From Pseudomonadota bacterium (GTDB lineage: Bacteria; Pseudomonadota; Gammaproteobacteria; Steroidobacterales; JBCBZW01), in NCBI GenBank assembly GCA_039193195.1, contig JBCCWS010000011.1:1-64000 (forward strand): 64,000 bases of DNA, in the 5' to 3' direction. Shown here one piece after another: positions 42,549 to 51,022 of the stretch. The notes beneath the pieces were generated by a model. That model was given only the letters and a program-made list of their open reading frames with translations. It was not told where the DNA came from and made no database searches. Position 1 is the first letter of the stretch. Every line of letters starts with the position of its first letter. Made by a program: the position numbers and the translations under genes.

Positions 42549-44126
42549 ATGCAGCCACCGCCGCAGCTATCGCGTCGACGGTTTCTTGAACTTGTCGGAT
42601 CCTCCGGCGGCGCGAGTGCCGCCTACGGCGTCGCGATGGCGCTTGGTCTGTTGCCGGACTTTGCCAACGGCGCGAGCATCCCTTCAGCGCTGATGCGCCC
42701 GCGCTCACCTCAGCGTGTGGTCATCCTAGGTGCCGGCATCGCAGGGCTTGCAGCGGCCTACGAGCTTGGGCGGGCCGGCTACGAGGTGACGGTGTTGGAG
42801 GCGTCTGCCAGAGCCGGTGGGCGCAACTTCACCGTTCGCCACGGCACCGTGATCGACGAGATTGGCGCACGCCAAGTGTGCGATTTCGACGACCACCCCA
42901 ACCTCTACTTCAATGCGGGGCCGGCCCGCATCCCCGGCAACCACCGCCGCCTGTTGCACTATTGCCGCGTCCTCGGCGTGCCCCTCGAAGTGTTCGTCAA
43001 CGAGAACCGCAGCGCCTACGTGCAGGACGATCGCATGTTGGGAGGGCGGCCGATCCGCAACCGCGAGTACGTGACGGACATGCGCGGCTTCCTAAGTGAG
43101 CTGCTTTGTAAGGCCATGTCGCCCCAAGCCATGGACGGAACGCTGTCCGCTGACGACATCGAGCGCGTTCGCGAGTTTGCCCGCGCCTACGGCGATCTCG
43201 GGCCGGATCACACTTACCAGGGCTCCCATCGTGCGGGCATCGCGGGCGGCGGCATGATCATCCCCGCGAGCGAGCGCGATCCCTTCGAGTTAAAGGAGCT
43301 GCTGAAGTCCGATTTCTGGCGATTCCCGATGCACTGGGGAGAGCTAGGCGATCAGGCCACACCGATGATGCAGCCCGTCGGCGGCATGGATCGCATCGTT
43401 GCGGGCTTCATGCGTCAGGTTGGATCGATGGTGCGACTGAACTGTCCCGTACGCGGCGTGTTCCTGCGCCCGGGTGGCGTGCGCGTCGCCTACCAGGACG
43501 CCAATGGGGAACGTCAGGAGATCGACGCGACCTACTGCCTGAACAGTATCCCCTCCCATCTTCTCTCCGGCATAGAGCATAACTTCCCGGCCCGCTACGC
43601 TCGCGCATTGCAGGCACCGACCCGAGGCAAGCTGTTCAAAATTGGTCTGCAGGCGCGTGAACGGTTCTGGGAGCGTGAGGGTATCTACGGCGGTATCTCA
43701 TGGACTTTCCAGGACATTGCCCAGATTTGGTACCCCAGCCATGGCATCCATAGCGCCAAGGGAATCGTGCTCGGTGCCTACACCTTCCCGCCACAGGTGG
43801 GTGAGAAATTCGCACGCCTCACCCCCGCCGAACGCATCGCCAAGGCGATTCGGGAGGGCGAGAAGGTGCACCCGGGGTACGGCAGTTACATGCAAACGGG
43901 CATCTCTGTGGCGTGGCACCGGATGAATCACATGCTCGGCTGCGCGGCGCGCTGGGATGAGCAGAACCGGCGTGAGTACTTCCCCACGCTAGCCGCCCCC
44001 GTCGGTAATCACTTCATGATCGGCGATCAGGTGAGCTACCACGCGGGCTGGCAGGAGGGCGCTTTGGCATCAGCGCTCAAGGTGATCGAGCAGATCGACG
44101 AGCGGACCACGATGGCATCCACCTAA
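42549..44126 (+). CDS. Tat-exported flavin amine oxidase/L-amino-acid oxidase-like protein
   Basis: This 525-aa protein starts with a twin-arginine signal SRRRFLELVGSSGG (residues 8-21). The dinucleotide fold follows as RVVILGAGIAGLAAAYELGR (about 56-75), with GYEVTVLEASARAGGRN, all as in FAD-dependent monoamine and L-amino-acid oxidases (PF01593). Near the end HFMIGDQVSYHAGWQEGALASA is the usual second FAD-binding stretch. GGAG lies six bases before the ATG. The gene lies one base before the cytochrome c-RidA gene. This suggests a periplasmic oxidation in which electrons go to cytochrome c and the released imine is hydrolysed by RidA. The substrate is unknown. Confidence 0.92.
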   Translation: MQPPPQLSRRRFLELVGSSGGASAAYGVAMALGLLPDFANGASIPSALMRPRSPQRVVILGAGIAGLAAAYELGRAGYEVTVLEASARAGGRNFTVRHGTVIDEIGARQVCDFDDHPNLYFNAGPARIPGNHRRLLHYCRVLGVPLEVFVNENRSAYVQDDRMLGGRPIRNREYVTDMRGFLSELLCKAMSPQAMDGTLSADDIERVREFARAYGDLGPDHTYQGSHRAGIAGGGMIIPASERDPFELKELLKSDFWRFPMHWGELGDQATPMMQPVGGMDRIVAGFMRQVGSMVRLNCPVRGVFLRPGGVRVAYQDANGERQEIDATYCLNSIPSHLLSGIEHNFPARYARALQAPTRGKLFKIGLQARERFWEREGIYGGISWTFQDIAQIWYPSHGIHSAKGIVLGAYTFPPQVGEKFARLTPAERIAKAIREGEKVHPGYGSYMQTGISVAWHRMNHMLGCAARWDEQNRREYFPTLAAPVGNHFMIGDQVSYHAGWQEGALASALKVIEQIDERTTMAST

Positions 44127-44127
44127 C

Positions 44128-45285
44128 ATGGGGACAGTGTCTGATGCAGGGATTGCAACGATACTGTTAGGTGCTGCTCTGATCGCCCCTTCCACGGGGG
44201 CGCAGCCCCACGAGCAGTGTCTGCTATGTCATGGTGTACGTGCGCAGGGGAATCAAGCGATCGGCGCGCCCTCCTTGCGAGTGCTGGCCCCCTGGTACGT
44301 CGAACAGCAGCTTCATGCCTACCGGGAGGGTCGACGCGGTGGCAACGATGAGTACGGAGCGGTGATGCAGGCTGTGGCTGCGGCTATGAGCGATGAGCAG
44401 ATCGCAAGCGTAGCGCGCACGGTCATCTCCTTGGAGCCGGAGCAGTCCTCACCCGCTGGCGCTGTGCCCTCGGAGCCTACCGCGGCCGCCGCATACCCAG
44501 CGTGTGCCGCGTGCCACGGTGATGATGCCGGTGGCAATCAGACGCTCGGCGCCCCGGCCTTGGCGGGGCAGAACGCCTGGTACTTGCGCAAGCGCATGGA
44601 TGCCTTCACAAGCGCCAGCGAGTCCGAGCAGGACAGCAGTGTGTTGGCTATGCAGGCCTCACTCGTTAGCCTCGGCGGAGCGGATGCTCTAGATCAACTC
44701 AGTCAGTACCTGGCGGCCTTGCCGCCAGTGGACCACGACCGTCTTTCCGGCCAACAGGAGTCAGCCAAGATGAACACCCCCCGCGTGCGTGCAGCGGCCA
44801 TGCTAGCCAGCACCATGATCGCCGCAGCACCGCTAGCGGCGCAGGAAGTCACCCGGTACCCCCTGCCCAACGGCTCCACCTTCCCCATCGCCCTCGCGGT
44901 GGAAACCTCGCCGAACACTACGCTCATTCACCACAGTGGTCTGACACCGCGTCCCGTGGACCCCGACGCCGAGCGTTTCAGTGAGGCCTATTGGGGAGAC
45001 ACGAAGACCCAAGCGATGAGTGTCTTCAGCCGCATGGAGACGTCGCTGGAGAACCTTGGCGTGGGGTTCGGGGACATCATCAAGATGACCGTGTTCCTGG
45101 TCGGTACGGAGGCGACGGGAGGTCGGCTGGACTTCGCGGGCTTTATGGAAGCGTACACGCAGTACTTCGGTACCGAAGAGCAGCCCAATCTGCCCGCCCG
45201 CTCGGCCGTGCAAGTGGCTGGCTTGGCAGCCCCGGGGATGTTGGTAGAAGTAGAGGTCATCATCGCAAGGCCTGCTGGCGAGTAG
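44128..45285 (+). CDS. Di-haem cytochrome c (c4-like) fused to RidA domain
   Basis: The frame is 385 aa. The N-terminal part has a signal peptide (TILLGAALIAPSTGAQ) and two c-type haem sites, CLLCH (31-35) and CAACH (126-130), in a cytochrome c4-like tandem; LAPWYVEQQLHAYREGRRG and NAWYLRKRMDAF are typical. At Met215 (44770) a second signal-peptide-like stretch begins (RVRAAAMLASTMIAAAPLAAQ), followed by a RidA/YjgF domain: IIKMTVFLVGTEA and NLPARSAVQVAGLAAPGMLV, with the key Arg of PARS. An AGGAG site lies nine bases before this Met, and no stop separates the parts. Either one fused protein or two proteins from one frame is possible. It starts one base after the oxidase stop. Confidence 0.85.
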   Translation: MGTVSDAGIATILLGAALIAPSTGAQPHEQCLLCHGVRAQGNQAIGAPSLRVLAPWYVEQQLHAYREGRRGGNDEYGAVMQAVAAAMSDEQIASVARTVISLEPEQSSPAGAVPSEPTAAAAYPACAACHGDDAGGNQTLGAPALAGQNAWYLRKRMDAFTSASESEQDSSVLAMQASLVSLGGADALDQLSQYLAALPPVDHDRLSGQQESAKMNTPRVRAAAMLASTMIAAAPLAAQEVTRYPLPNGSTFPIALAVETSPNTTLIHHSGLTPRPVDPDAERFSEAYWGDTKTQAMSVFSRMETSLENLGVGFGDIIKMTVFLVGTEATGGRLDFAGFMEAYTQYFGTEEQPNLPARSAVQVAGLAAPGMLVEVEVIIARPAGE

Positions 45286-45762: not shown

Positions 45763-48426
45763 ATGAGCGTACGCAGCAACAGTATTAGGATCGCATTCGC
45801 CTTGGGGGCGATGAGTGCGGTGGGGGTCGCGATCGCACAGGAAGGCGAAGTGGAAGAGGTCACCGTAACGGGCCTGCGCGGCGCGCCGCGCACGGCCGTG
45901 GATGCGGCAGTACCCGTAGACACCTTTGATGCTTCGGCCATCGAAGCCGTCTCGCACACGGACACACAGGACATCCTGCAGACGCTGGTGCCGTCCTACA
46001 ACGTCGGTCGCCAACCGATCAGCGACGGCTCCACCTTCATTCGCCCCGCGTCACTGCGGGGGCTACCTTCGCACCACACTTTGGTACTTGTGAACGGCAA
46101 GCGCCGCCATCGTGCCTCACTGGTGACGATTGGCGGCGATGGGGCCCAGGGCCCCGACGTTGCCACGATTCCCTCTATCGCTATCCAGAGCATCGAGGTG
46201 CTGCGCGATGGCGCGTCGTCACAGTACGGATCGGATGCTATCGCTGGCGTCATCAACTTCAACCTGAAGCAGAACTCCGAAGGCATCGACGTCGCCCTGG
46301 ACACAGGGCAGTTCTACGAGTCCGATGGCACCAGTGTCACCGCCCAAGCCAACGTAGGCTTGCCCTTGGGCGATTCAGGCTTTCTGTCCATCTCCGGTGA
46401 GTTCAACGACGCCGACTTCACCGAGCGAGCTGAGCAATACTGTGAGTCCTGGTTCTGCGTCGACCCTAGCAACCCGCGCTTCGATCCGGACGCCGGTTAC
46501 GCAGACTTCGTTCTCGGTCGTCCCAATGAGGATGATGCGCGTCTGGACGCCCTTCAGCAGGCCTTCCCGGGGGGCATCGACGATGCGTCCGTAGAGGGCA
46601 GCGTCGTCCAGCCCTGGGGCCAGCCCAACGCCCAGTCCGTGCGTTTTTTCTACAACGCGGGCTACGACTTCGACAACGGCATGGAACTCTACAGCTTCGG
46701 TAACTACTCCGACAGCGAGGGCGACGGTAGCTTCTTCTACCGCTATCCGGGCAACGGTACAGTGGAGGATCTGCGACTCGAGGACGGCTCACTCTACAGC
46801 CCCCTGGAAATCTTCCCGGGTGGCTTCACGCCGCGATTTGAAGGCGAGGTGACCGACTACTCCGTGGCTGGTGGCTTGCGCAGCCGGGAGAACGCCCTGT
46901 TCTCCTGGGACGCGAGTGCACGCTACGGGTTCAACGAGATCGACTACCGCCTGTTCAACACGATTAATCCATCACTGGGGCCGGATACGCCGACGGACTT
47001 CCGCCCCGGCACCCTGTCCAACGAAGAGTTCCAAGTGCAGCTGGACATGACCAGCGAGTTTGATATCGGGACGGCGTCGCCGCTGGTGGTCGCCTATGGC
47101 GCCTCATACCTGGATGAGAGCTACGAGGTAGGCCAGTCCGACGACCCTGCCTCCTACACGCCAGGCCCCTTCGCTGCTCAAGATCCCTTCGGCTTCTGCA
47201 CGGACGAGGCCGACGTGGCCACACGCACGCCCACGGCAGCGGGCGAGGCGGTCATCGCCAACGGCTCCAGCCTCAGCTGCGCGGATCCGAACGATGCGGT
47301 CTACACAGTGGTCGGTGTCGGCTCGAACGGTTTCCCAGGCTATTCGCCCGAATTCTCTGATACCTATGAACGCGATTCTTTCGCGGTGTACCTCGACCTA
47401 AGCGCGGACGTCACGGAGAAGTTGCTGTTGCAGGGGGCCGTGCGCTTTGAGGACTATTCGGACTTCGGTAGCGTGACCGTGGGCAAAGTGGCGGCGCGCT
47501 ACTACGTCACGCCGGCCTTTGGCATCCGTGGCTCTTGGGGCACGGGCTTTCGCGCGCCCACGCCAGGGCAGCAAGGCACTACGAACGTCTCCACCCGCTT
47601 GCCGAACGGTTTCCCCGTCGCAACCGGCCTGTTCCCAGCCTCTGGCCCCGTCGCCCAGGCGCTCGGCGCATCACCCCTCGATGCGGAAACCAGCGACAGC
47701 TTCACCGTCGGCTTCACCGCCGCGGTCGGTGCGCTGGATCTAACGGTTGACTTCTACCGCATCGACATTGATGACCGCTTCAACGCGATCTCTACGCTCG
47801 ACGTGTCTGCCGATCCCGAAAGCGGAGATGCCTTCGACAACTTCCTGGCCTTGCAAGCGGCTGGTGTGGTGGGTGCAGAGTCGATCGGCGGCGTCAACTA
47901 CTTTACCAACGCTTTCGATAGCCGCACGCAGGGTGTGGACGTGGTGGCCACCTACCCGGTGGCCTGGGGCAATGCGGGCACCACGGACTTCATGTTCTCG
48001 ATGAACTACAACGAAAACGAGCTTCGCTCGGATGCTAGTGAGTTTCTAAACCCCGAAGCACAGTTCGACTTTGAGAACGCTGACCCGAACCTACGTTTCA
48101 ATGTGACCGGAGTGCACAACATCGGCCGCTTCACCGTGCTCGCGCGCGGCCGCTTCTTCGGCCCGAGCGACAACTCGGATAACACCGATCCACTGTCGAT
48201 CCAGGAGTACGACAGCACGCTCTTCGTCGACCTCGAGGCGAGCTATCAGGTCACGGACCGCGTCCGCATGACCGTAGGCGGTCGTAACCTATTCGACACC
48301 TTCCCCGACGAGGTGGACCGCATCGCCAGCGATAACGACTTTTGCTGCGGGCGCATATTCGCGTCGAGCTCGATCGTGCCCTGGCAAGGTGGCTACTACT
48401 ACGCGCGCCTGAACGCTAGTTTCTAG
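45763..48426 (+). CDS. TonB-dependent outer-membrane receptor
   Basis: From ATG 45763 (AGAGG seven bases upstream) this 887-aa protein has a signal peptide (IRIAFALGAMSAVGVAIAQ) and a TonB box EEVTVTGLRG. Its plug domain carries FIRPASLRGLPSHHTLVLVN and IQSIEVLRDGASSQYGSDAI, typical of the larger receptors of the iron/siderophore and catechol types. The barrel ends in VRMTVGGRNLFDTFPDEVD and terminal NASF. Earlier in-frame Met codons (from 45652) would add an unlikely leader. The ligand is unknown; the neighbouring oxidase-cytochrome-RidA genes hint at amino acids or amines, but this is speculative. Two long hairpins follow the stop. Confidence 0.92.
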   Translation: MSVRSNSIRIAFALGAMSAVGVAIAQEGEVEEVTVTGLRGAPRTAVDAAVPVDTFDASAIEAVSHTDTQDILQTLVPSYNVGRQPISDGSTFIRPASLRGLPSHHTLVLVNGKRRHRASLVTIGGDGAQGPDVATIPSIAIQSIEVLRDGASSQYGSDAIAGVINFNLKQNSEGIDVALDTGQFYESDGTSVTAQANVGLPLGDSGFLSISGEFNDADFTERAEQYCESWFCVDPSNPRFDPDAGYADFVLGRPNEDDARLDALQQAFPGGIDDASVEGSVVQPWGQPNAQSVRFFYNAGYDFDNGMELYSFGNYSDSEGDGSFFYRYPGNGTVEDLRLEDGSLYSPLEIFPGGFTPRFEGEVTDYSVAGGLRSRENALFSWDASARYGFNEIDYRLFNTINPSLGPDTPTDFRPGTLSNEEFQVQLDMTSEFDIGTASPLVVAYGASYLDESYEVGQSDDPASYTPGPFAAQDPFGFCTDEADVATRTPTAAGEAVIANGSSLSCADPNDAVYTVVGVGSNGFPGYSPEFSDTYERDSFAVYLDLSADVTEKLLLQGAVRFEDYSDFGSVTVGKVAARYYVTPAFGIRGSWGTGFRAPTPGQQGTTNVSTRLPNGFPVATGLFPASGPVAQALGASPLDAETSDSFTVGFTAAVGALDLTVDFYRIDIDDRFNAISTLDVSADPESGDAFDNFLALQAAGVVGAESIGGVNYFTNAFDSRTQGVDVVATYPVAWGNAGTTDFMFSMNYNENELRSDASEFLNPEAQFDFENADPNLRFNVTGVHNIGRFTVLARGRFFGPSDNSDNTDPLSIQEYDSTLFVDLEASYQVTDRVRMTVGGRNLFDTFPDEVDRIASDNDFCCGRIFASSSIVPWQGGYYYARLNASF

Positions 48427-48531: not shown

Positions 48532-48619
48532 TGCCCTGGGCCACGGTGGACATCGCTGGTGTTCGTCAGGGCAGGCGGTTACGCTCCTTCGCGTGATCGC
48601 TCAGGGAACGACCCTCCCC

Positions 48620-51022
48620 ATGAATTCCTCAGCCGCCCTTGGCTCGCGGCCCGCCCTCTTGTCGCTGCTCGCCCGGCTGCTCCTGTGCCTTGCCCTGCCC
48701 GCGCTAGCCCAACCTTCGGTCACGATCGGAGTGTTGCTCGACGGCCCTGACGAGCTGGCGCAAACGCAACTCCCCGCGATTCAGCGCGAGATGGTCGATC
48801 TCCTGCGCCCAGATGTACAGCCGCGCTTTCCCGCCGCCAAGCAGCTCGACGGAGGCTGGCGCCTAGCGGGGGTGCGTGCCAGCTTGCGCCAGCTTCTCGA
48901 TGATGACGAGGTAGACCTGATCATCACCTTAGGTCTCGTTGCCTCTCACGAGGCCGCCCGCGTTGAGCGCTTGCGAAAGCCGGTGATTGCGGCGCGAGTG
49001 GCAGACGCCGCACTGCAGGGCTTTCCCTTCGAGGCCGGCGCGAGCGGTAAGGCGAACTTCACCTACGTGACGAGCTTGCGCGAGGTGGAGCAGGACCTGG
49101 AGAGCTTCTATCGCATCAGCCCCTTCGAGCACCTCACGGTGCTGGTGGACGCGCTCACCTTGGAGTCGATTCCGCAGCTGCGCCAGCGTGCCGAGGCGAC
49201 TGAGGCCGCCTTCTCAGTGAGCGTGGATGTGGTCCCAGTCACCGATTCGGTGGCGGACGCGCTCCGGCGCTTGCCCAAGCGCACGGACGCAGTGTACGTG
49301 ACACCGTTGCACCGCTTTAGCGGTGCGGACATGCGCGCCCTGGCCGATGGGCTGATCGCGCAGCGCTTGCCAAGCTTCTCCCTGCTTGGGCGCACCCAGG
49401 TGGAGCAGGGGTTGATGCTGGCCACCGGCGGCGGCAGTGATGATCTCACGCGGTACGCCCGCCGAATCGCCTTGATGGCCCAGCGAATCCTGCTCGGCGA
49501 GCCGGCCGCGGAGTTGGGAGTCGCCTTGCCGCAAGCGGAGCGTGTCGCGATCAACATGCGCTCCGCAAGAGCCATCGGGTTCCTGCCCCGGTGGTCCGTC
49601 CTGGTCGATGCGATCCGCATTGACGATGTCGAACCCGATCAAGGGGAAGCCTTCAGCTTGATCGGCGCCATGCTAGACGCGATCGATCGCAACCTCGGCT
49701 TGCGCGCGGACGAGCTCGATGTGCGCATCGCCGAGGATACGGTCGATCAGGCTCGCTCAGGTCTGCTGCCTCAGGTATCAAGTTCTCTCAGCCGGACGCA
49801 GATCGACGGCGACCGTGCCGCGCCCGGGATCTCCAGCGAGCGCTCCATCGATGCGGGCATCGAAGTCTCGCAGGTGATCTATGCCGAAGAGGTGCGGGCG
49901 GGCTTCGTGGTCTCTCGCTTCCTGCGCGAGTCTCAAGACCATGCCTATCGCGCTCGTGTGCTCGATGTACTGCAGCTGGCGGCAAACGCCTACCTCGGCG
50001 TACTTCGGGCGAAGGCCCTCGAGAGCGTTCGAGCGTCCAACCTCGAAGTGACGCGCACCAACTTCGAACTCGCCCGTACCCGCGAGCGCATCGGCATTAG
50101 CGGCCGCGGCGATGTGCTGCGCTGGGAGAGCGAGCTGGCCACGGACAAGCGCGATCTGTTGGCGGCAGAGGCGGACCGTCGCGCCGCCGAAGTGGAGCTC
50201 AGCCGGGTTCTCAATCGACCTCAGCGTATCGCCTTGGCTACTACCGACGCTGGGACACAGGGCCCCTTACAGGCCTTGGAGGATCCGCGATTCACGCGCT
50301 TTATCGACAACCCCATCGTATGGGAGACGTTCCAGGAGTACGTCGTCGAAGACGCCCTGCGCCAGGCCCCGGAGTTAGCTCAATTCGACGCCCTGGAATC
50401 GGCCCAAGAACGGGACCTGCTTGCGCAGAAACGTAGCTTCTATATCCCTTCGGTGACCGTGGGTGGTAGCGGCTCGAGCAACCTCGATCGCAGTGGCCGC
50501 GGCTCTGACTTCGCGGGTGCCGGCCTCGATGATGAGAGTTGGAACGTGGGCGTGCAGCTGAGCTTGCCGCTCTTCGCTGGCGGCGCCCGCCGGGCGGCGC
50601 GTTCCCAGGCGGCCCACGAACTCGATCAAATTCAAACCCAGCGAGCAGACCTGGCGCAGCGGGTAGAGGCGCGCGCCCGCGCGGCGCTCAAGCAGACGGG
50701 CGGCTCCTATCCGGCGATTGAGCTGTCTGGGGATGCTGCCCGTGCGGCGGCCGAGAACCTCGAGCTTATCGCCGATGCCTACTCCCAGGGAGCCGTGTCC
50801 ATCACCGATCTGGTGAACGCCCAGGACGCAGCCCTGGCCGCCAACTTGGCCCAAGCCGAGGCCCGCTACGCCTTCCTGCTGGACTACGTGGAACTAGTAC
50901 GAGCCTCAGGCAGTTTCGAGTCTGTGCTCAGCCAGGATGGGCTGGAAGCCTGGTTCGTCCGCCTAGCGGAGTACTTTGCTGATCGCGGCGTGCAGCCGCT
51001 CGCGCCGGAGAGACCGAGATGA
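48620..51022 (+). CDS. TolC-family outer-membrane factor with N-terminal ABC substrate-binding domain
   Basis: From ATG 48620 the protein is 800 aa (GTG 48593 is also in frame). A signal peptide (LLSLLARLLLCLALPALA) leads into a region at about 33-335 like ABC_sub_bind proteins (PF04392, periplasmic binding fold): VTIGVLLDGPDELAQ, VDLIITLGLVASHEAAR, KRTDAVYVTPLHRF, YARRIALMAQRILLGEPAAE and VAINMRSARAIGF. After about 340 comes a TolC/OEP-type coiled-coil barrel: LRVLQLAAN-like DVLQLAANAYLGVLRAKALE, SGRGDVLRWESELA and VSITDLVNAQDAAL. Normal TolC is about 450 aa, so this is a fusion of two domain types. It overlaps the adaptor gene by 4 bp. The binding domain might gate or sense the substrate. 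Confidence 0.87.
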   Translation: MNSSAALGSRPALLSLLARLLLCLALPALAQPSVTIGVLLDGPDELAQTQLPAIQREMVDLLRPDVQPRFPAAKQLDGGWRLAGVRASLRQLLDDDEVDLIITLGLVASHEAARVERLRKPVIAARVADAALQGFPFEAGASGKANFTYVTSLREVEQDLESFYRISPFEHLTVLVDALTLESIPQLRQRAEATEAAFSVSVDVVPVTDSVADALRRLPKRTDAVYVTPLHRFSGADMRALADGLIAQRLPSFSLLGRTQVEQGLMLATGGGSDDLTRYARRIALMAQRILLGEPAAELGVALPQAERVAINMRSARAIGFLPRWSVLVDAIRIDDVEPDQGEAFSLIGAMLDAIDRNLGLRADELDVRIAEDTVDQARSGLLPQVSSSLSRTQIDGDRAAPGISSERSIDAGIEVSQVIYAEEVRAGFVVSRFLRESQDHAYRARVLDVLQLAANAYLGVLRAKALESVRASNLEVTRTNFELARTRERIGISGRGDVLRWESELATDKRDLLAAEADRRAAEVELSRVLNRPQRIALATTDAGTQGPLQALEDPRFTRFIDNPIVWETFQEYVVEDALRQAPELAQFDALESAQERDLLAQKRSFYIPSVTVGGSGSSNLDRSGRGSDFAGAGLDDESWNVGVQLSLPLFAGGARRAARSQAAHELDQIQTQRADLAQRVEARARAALKQTGGSYPAIELSGDAARAAAENLELIADAYSQGAVSITDLVNAQDAALAANLAQAEARYAFLLDYVELVRASGSFESVLSQDGLEAWFVRLAEYFADRGVQPLAPERPR

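Follow-up and report, generated by a model that had tools for sequence, protein, structure and literature searches.

The window, by which we mean the whole 64,000-nucleotide stretch of DNA analysed, carries on its forward strand a gene for a flavoenzyme (42549-44126; 525 aa, 94% identical in a congener), followed after a single base by an open reading frame (44128-45285) in which a cytochrome c4-like part is joined to a RidA domain. The flavoenzyme matches Pfam Amino_oxidase, has the FAD-binding GxGxxG motif in the form GAGIAG (residues 61-66) and shows near its N-terminus the sequence SRRRFLEL, recognized by eye as a twin-arginine motif. Among solved proteins it is closest to the Rhodococcus opacus L-amino acid oxidase 2jae (7e-79, residues 52-521). 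Arg127, invariant in a six-row alignment (A2), is aligned with the Arg of ATRIP in 2jae and is presumably the counterpart of the carboxylate-binding Arg84 of the R. opacus enzyme. A preliminary description of this DNA had called the protein a flavin amine oxidase; its reading as a probably exported flavoenzyme is supported, and L-amino acid oxidase (LAAO)-family enzyme is the better name.

The joined frame starts with ATG and runs for 385 codons with no internal stop. Pfam Cytochrom_C (9e-13) and Ribonuc_L-PSP (1.5e-15) are both matched by the one 385-aa protein, which confirms the earlier claim that the haem sites CLLCH and CAACH and a RidA domain lie in a single unbroken frame. The mass of the fused product is put at 40 kDa, an estimate from the length of the unprocessed chain. 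It is this joined frame that is unusual, the three-gene set itself being already described.

The cytochrome part (codons 1-214, 44128-44769) consists of a signal-like start, two haem domains and a tail. Haem site 1 (CLLCH, aa 31-35) lies at 44218-44232 and haem site 2 (CAACH, aa 126-130) at 44503-44517, and the probable distal ligands, assigned by analogy, are Met80 for haem 1 (44365-44367) and Met175 for haem 2 (44650-44652). The two CxxCH motifs and the two Met columns, all invariant in the cytochrome alignment (A4), make up a c4 signature. In a first model of the whole fusion (alignment A3, mean pLDDT 69) the alignment of the cytochrome rows went wrong beyond haem 1, and therefore only the RidA half of that model was used and the cytochrome half was refolded with A4. 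The refolded half (mean pLDDT 78) resembles the c4 chains 1h1o, 8uf3 and 1etp (TMt 0.61-0.70), and its top structural match, ahead of these, is the TsdBA thiosulfate dehydrogenase chain 5lo9_B. The signal-like start of the cytochrome (44128-44205) contains no Lys or Arg, hence none before the hydrophobic core. Upstream of ATG 44128 there is no evident ribosome-binding site, and translation of the cytochrome may therefore require coupling to the oxidase gene. The same genome contains three matches to the COX1 family and three to cytochrome c assembly proteins, so the cell has both an electron sink and a means of attaching haem.

The RidA domain (44845-45282) has its catalytic Arg358 at codon 45199-45201; this residue and a C-terminal VEVE stretch align with other Rid proteins (the imine-hydrolase Arg and Glu), and the catalytic Arg was found in all 40 Rid domains examined, including those of the window and the congener (36 by pattern, 4 by eye). 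The model of this half is of high confidence (TMt 0.95 to 9bka). By sequence and fold alike, the nearest solved relatives are the Rid3 proteins PSPTO_3006 (9bka) and PFL_1385 (9bkc), whose solved chains have no cytochrome part, in contrast to the joined RidA of the window, and which reduce the free imine produced by venom LAAO in vitro (PMC5619798). A tree of 87 RidA rows places the fused RidA from the two congeners with a stand-alone paralogue of the genus and a second RidA of genome G877 (see below) in a five-row group (support 96/91), itself inside a 29-row group (99/91), the rest of which comes mostly from LAAO loci. The stand-alone paralogue, found on contig C6 of the window's own genome (5883-6560 of locus L040) and contig C201 of the congener (22-645 of L042), is about 80% identical to the fused RidA domain and has similar neighbours in both congeners.

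As the preliminary description held, the RidA part comes with an AGGAG of its own (44756-44760), a probable ribosome-binding site 9 nt upstream of an internal ATG at 44770, and this ATG opens a signal-peptide-like stretch, judged by eye (MNTPRVRAAAMLASTMIAAAPLAAQ; 44770-44844). The cytochrome part ends in the tail PPVDHDRLSGQQESAK, after which RidA starts. Because the cytochromes of aligned relatives stop at or near the position where this tail begins, the tail plausibly includes former intergenic DNA. The frame would most simply have arisen when two genes lying close together lost the stop that ended the cytochrome, while RidA kept its ribosome-binding site; translation from ATG 44770 probably yields free RidA as well. 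A scan for promoters and terminators returned no promoter-like site and one terminator-like site, on the other strand and scoring below the shuffled mean.

Among 59 relatives searched, the window's own genome (G000) included, a stop-free match across both parts was found only in G000 itself and in G001, a member of the same genus (residues 12-383, 79% identity). Window and G001 share the gene order LAAO, cytochrome-RidA, TonB receptor and efflux ORF, and dS between them is 0.85-1.01 across the four genes compared. The LAAO has a dN of 0.033, mature RidA one of 0.022 and the signal stretch of RidA one of 0.038 (dS 0.78), whereas the cytochrome domains reach 0.22-0.27 and the signal stretch of the cytochrome 0.86; dN/dS of the cytochrome part is about 0.2. 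A run of 31 nt spanning the ribosome-binding site and the RidA start (44744-44774) is identical in G001, and the 8 codons that precede ATG 44770 are free of synonymous changes. This identity is suggestive only, since the run is one of 8 identical runs of 31 nt or longer in the four genes compared. Simulated neutral evolution left all 14 junction codons free of stops in both lineages with a probability of 37-51%; the open junction alone is thus no proof of selection, and an inference of selection from the absence of stops was accordingly dropped.

In the order to which the window belongs, 75 of 396 genomes have an LAAO match (own and G001 included). In the class the distribution of LAAO is patchy, with 6 of 369 genomes at E<=1e-40, the own genome among them; a RidA gene lies beside the LAAO in four of the other five and a cytochrome gene in two. 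We compared 40 loci fetched from whole genomes (L184-L223), a non-random set of which 15 came from phylum-search matches and 25, mostly from the top of the list, from the LAAO matches among the 75 order genomes, with 80 loci of named genomes found with an LAAO alignment; the two sets partly overlap, L058 and L186/L250 lying on contigs of equal length (12606). An LAAO is present in all 40 whole-genome loci and a Rid gene in 37, and 39 of the 41 LAAO ORFs in this set have an RR motif in the N-terminal part, the other two being one cut by a contig end and one with KR. Thirty of these loci contain an LAAO-cytochrome-Rid triplet (20 dihaem, 10 monohaem) with gaps of -4 to 138 nt, and the other ten have no adjacent Rid gene (five) or no adjacent cytochrome (five). 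A stop separates the cytochrome from the Rid gene in every triplet, and none of the 30 is fused, even counting two weak cases, L191, where the Rid gene is a fragment, and L198, where it forms a long branch. In the named-genome set a cytochrome follows the LAAO in 29 of 80 loci, together with a Rid gene within about 2.6 kb downstream in 18 (8 dihaem, 10 monohaem) and without a downstream Rid gene in 11. Another 15 have a Rid gene only (2 of them upstream), and 36 have neither partner nearby by the cut-offs used; 8 of the 80 loci have less than 2 kb of downstream sequence. Three gammaproteobacterial LAAO loci (L067, L071 and L072) have a 459-residue ORF, membrane-transporter-like by eye, between the dihaem cytochrome and RidA.

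A Rid match and a CxxCH motif in one ORF, in either order, were found nowhere in the 80 and 40 fetched loci besides the window genus; the named-genome scan was queried with LAAO and would miss fusions beside other oxidases. Searches with the fusion itself, for which the query was in cytochrome-RidA order and few candidates were scored per genome, gave a stop-free match across both parts only in G000 among 369 genomes of the class (E<=1e-25) and only in G000 among 398 genomes of the phylum (E<=1e-30). Matches spanning cytochrome and RidA occur in 8 of the 74 order genomes with an LAAO match (E<=1e-12), stop-free in G001 and with one to three stops in the remaining seven, and such a match in G743 from the phylum search contains two stops, both TAA. 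None of 22 matching plasmid records covers 80% of the cytochrome-RidA query. On annotated plasmids of Paracoccus marcusii and Microvirga ossetica, genes for flavin monoamine oxidase, cytochrome c and RidA follow one another in this same order, and in pGX5 of Komagataeibacter xylinus cytochrome and Rid genes come after insertion-sequence genes, in a stretch with no annotated oxidase. In each of the 17 non-own genomes that matched the cytochrome-RidA query in the phylum search (E<=1e-30), the locus that was fetched contains an LAAO homologue, the exceptions in closeness being G752, with RidA 3.4 kb downstream, and G560, with RidA upstream of an LAAO. RidA homologues without an LAAO in the fetched stretch (G042, G002, G017 and G004 of the order, G200 of the class) argue against strict linkage. 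A conserved fusion of cytochrome and RidA beside the oxidase, which the preliminary description suggested looking for, thus exists in the congener but in none of the 30 triplets. Of the two observations that together would have refuted the preliminary description, only one is made: relatives have a stop between the two parts, yet the oxidase neighbour is retained.

A joining in the opposite order was met by chance in G877, a genome of the same order whose LAAO is 60% identical to that of the window. Contig C487 of this genome (L249, 2-904) opens inside a RidA domain, and the frame stays open through a linker rich in Ala, Gly and Pro, which contains no ATG, GTG or TTG codon and no hydrophobic stretch, and on into a dihaem cytochrome; after the fused cytochrome come a TGA and the separate second RidA, with its own start. 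With neither an internal start nor a signal peptide at the joint, the fusion must be the product there. Contig C560, which carries the LAAO, ends within a RidA N-terminus that the beginning of C487 would nearly complete, and as the two contig ends do not overlap, the fusion is placed next to the LAAO by reconstruction. The draft assembly of G877 comprises about 620 contigs, with a completeness of 88% and a contamination of 5%. In the 22 genomes of the family of G877, which were searched for the RidA-cytochrome order, there was no other spanning match, and G805, of the same genus, gave no match. This RidA-cytochrome protein is apparently a second, independent fusion of the same partners.

Downstream of the joined frame lies a gene for a TonB-dependent receptor (45763-48426, forward strand). 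There are hints that it could be an outer-membrane partner for substrate uptake. Homologues of the receptor (E<=1e-20) lie near the LAAO in 16 of the 40 whole-genome and 9 of the 80 named-genome loci, counts that carry no background control. It is followed by an 809-aa ORF (48593-51022; 89% identity in G001) that oddly combines outer-membrane efflux (OEP) regions with a region resembling ABC substrate-binding proteins, the latter falling slightly short of the Pfam threshold.

Taken as a whole, we read the locus with moderate confidence as a periplasmic L-amino-acid oxidation operon that employs a fused cytochrome-RidA beside free RidA. The Tat-exported LAAO-family flavoenzyme would oxidise an L-amino acid to the imino acid, the reduced flavin would be reoxidised by the dihaem c4-type cytochrome, which would pass the electrons to the respiratory chain, and RidA would hydrolyse the imino acid to keto acid and ammonia. 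The reading as a periplasmic amino-acid dehydrogenase module draws on the chemistry of Rid proteins and LAAO (PMC4433059) and on the published observation that a Tat signal together with an adjacent cytochrome predicts cytochrome-using dehydrogenases in the flavin amine oxidase superfamily (PMC12224317). That Rid genes cluster with FAD amine oxidase genes has likewise been published (PMC4433059). What tells against the reading is the fast evolution of the cytochrome part and of its signal stretch, the modest reaction of published flavoenzymes with their c4-type partners (PMC12224317), and the LAAO loci that have neither partner nearby (36 of 80) or lack one adjacent partner (10 of 40). In the window genus the cytochrome stop would have been lost, so that the chain continues across the former gap between the genes, with its ribosome-binding site, and across what was the signal peptide of RidA into the RidA domain; the retained ribosome-binding site and ATG 44770 would probably also give free RidA beside the fusion, and the two forms might mix in RidA trimers. 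We infer the export, the electron flow, the substrate class, the dual products and the mixed trimers. If correct, the periplasm would house the whole path from amino acid to keto acid, with electrons saved instead of peroxide being made, and the frame would be a neat example of how a stop can be lost while a nested internal start is kept.

The main alternative is that the fusion is incidental, the loss of the stop being tolerated while the working RidA starts at ATG 44770 and the RidA tail of the cytochrome is cut off at the internal signal-peptide site or merely carried along. Retention and conservation of the ribosome-binding site, the ATG and the signal-like stretch would be expected in that case, the neutral expectation accounts for the open junction, and relatives manage with separate genes. 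Nevertheless, neither congener has regained a stop, though one is a single change away at several junction codons, and the apparently independent joining in G877 lacks the internal start and signal peptide that this explanation needs; we consider it rather improbable, while giving it real weight. A different objection is that the cytochrome domain is decaying and that only LAAO and RidA matter in the window genus. Its dN is far above that of its neighbours and its signal start is uncharged and poorly conserved, but a dN/dS near 0.2 and the intact haem motifs and Met columns in both congeners make decay very improbable. That a sequencing or assembly error deleted a stop codon could be suspected from the draft state of the own assembly (113 contigs), and is contradicted by the separately assembled G001, which has the same open frame at a dS of about 0.9; error and frameshift alike are ruled out, with practically no probability left to them.

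The flavoenzyme might also be a true O2-using oxidase that makes hydrogen peroxide, with the cytochrome in another role such as peroxide handling. This would agree with an L-amino acid oxidase as the closest solved relative and with the 15 named-genome loci that have RidA and no cytochrome. The cytochromes that follow the LAAO in 29 of the 80 loci and in the 30 triplets speak against it, as does the published prediction from Tat signal and adjacent cytochrome, and on comparative grounds a cytochrome-reducing dehydrogenase is more likely, an O2-using oxidase appearing unlikely. Whether LAAO-family enzymes with a neighbouring cytochrome act as dehydrogenases becomes directly testable with this joined frame.

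Going beyond the operon itself, it is conceivable, though we put it forward with considerable doubt, that joining cytochrome to deaminase is adaptive and evolved twice within one taxonomic order, once with each arrangement of the domains (window genus and G877). RidA trimers with cytochrome arms would then bind to the LAAO, where reoxidation of the flavin would be coupled to immediate on-site imine hydrolysis, and the nested start would set the ratio of fused to free protein. A physical link between a deaminase and the electron acceptor of its substrate-producing enzyme would, if true, point to a dedicated partnership rather than general housekeeping.

The module of oxidase, cytochrome and RidA proposed in the preliminary description is well supported by the conserved gene order and has already been published, as the lao-cccA-ridA cluster of Gluconacetobacter diazotrophicus PAL5 (GDI2456-2454), where adjacent LAAO, cytochrome c and RidA genes form a likely operon; the LAAO there carries a Tat signal, lao mutants lose production of indole-3-acetate from tryptophan, and the organisation is stated to be conserved in Caulobacter crescentus and Xanthomonas (PMC5053998). 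In both that cluster and the window the three functions are adjacent on one strand. The published genes are three separate ORFs, whereas in the window and in G001 a dihaem c4-like cytochrome is in frame with RidA. No cytochrome-RidA fusion was found in the published literature (open-licence PMC), and with the three-gene cluster in print, the novelty is that of a variant form of a described module. The partnership of LAAO and RidA is also found in Chlamydomonas, where LAO1 is a periplasmic LAAO and LAO2, from the same gene cluster, a putative RidA protein (PMC10805672), the two being cited as an enzyme complex (PMC5053998). That system is eukaryotic and, in the passages of PMC10805672 that deal with it, is described with no mention of a cytochrome partner, whereas the window has one. 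Cytochrome-using flavoprotein amine dehydrogenases include NicA2, Pnao and their relatives, with dihaem c4-type partners in clade 1 and covalent flavoenzyme-cytochrome fusions in subclade 3F (PMC12224317, PMC9396064); in vitro, flavoenzymes with c4-type partners reacted only modestly with those partners (PMC12224317). Neither 'RidA' nor 'L-amino acid' occurs in the main text of PMC12224317. These dehydrogenases and the window have in common a Tat flavoenzyme and an adjacent cytochrome gene, in the window SRRRFLEL and a one-base gap. The difference lies in the partner that is joined, for subclade 3F fuses the flavoenzyme with the cytochrome, whereas the window fuses the cytochrome with the deaminase.
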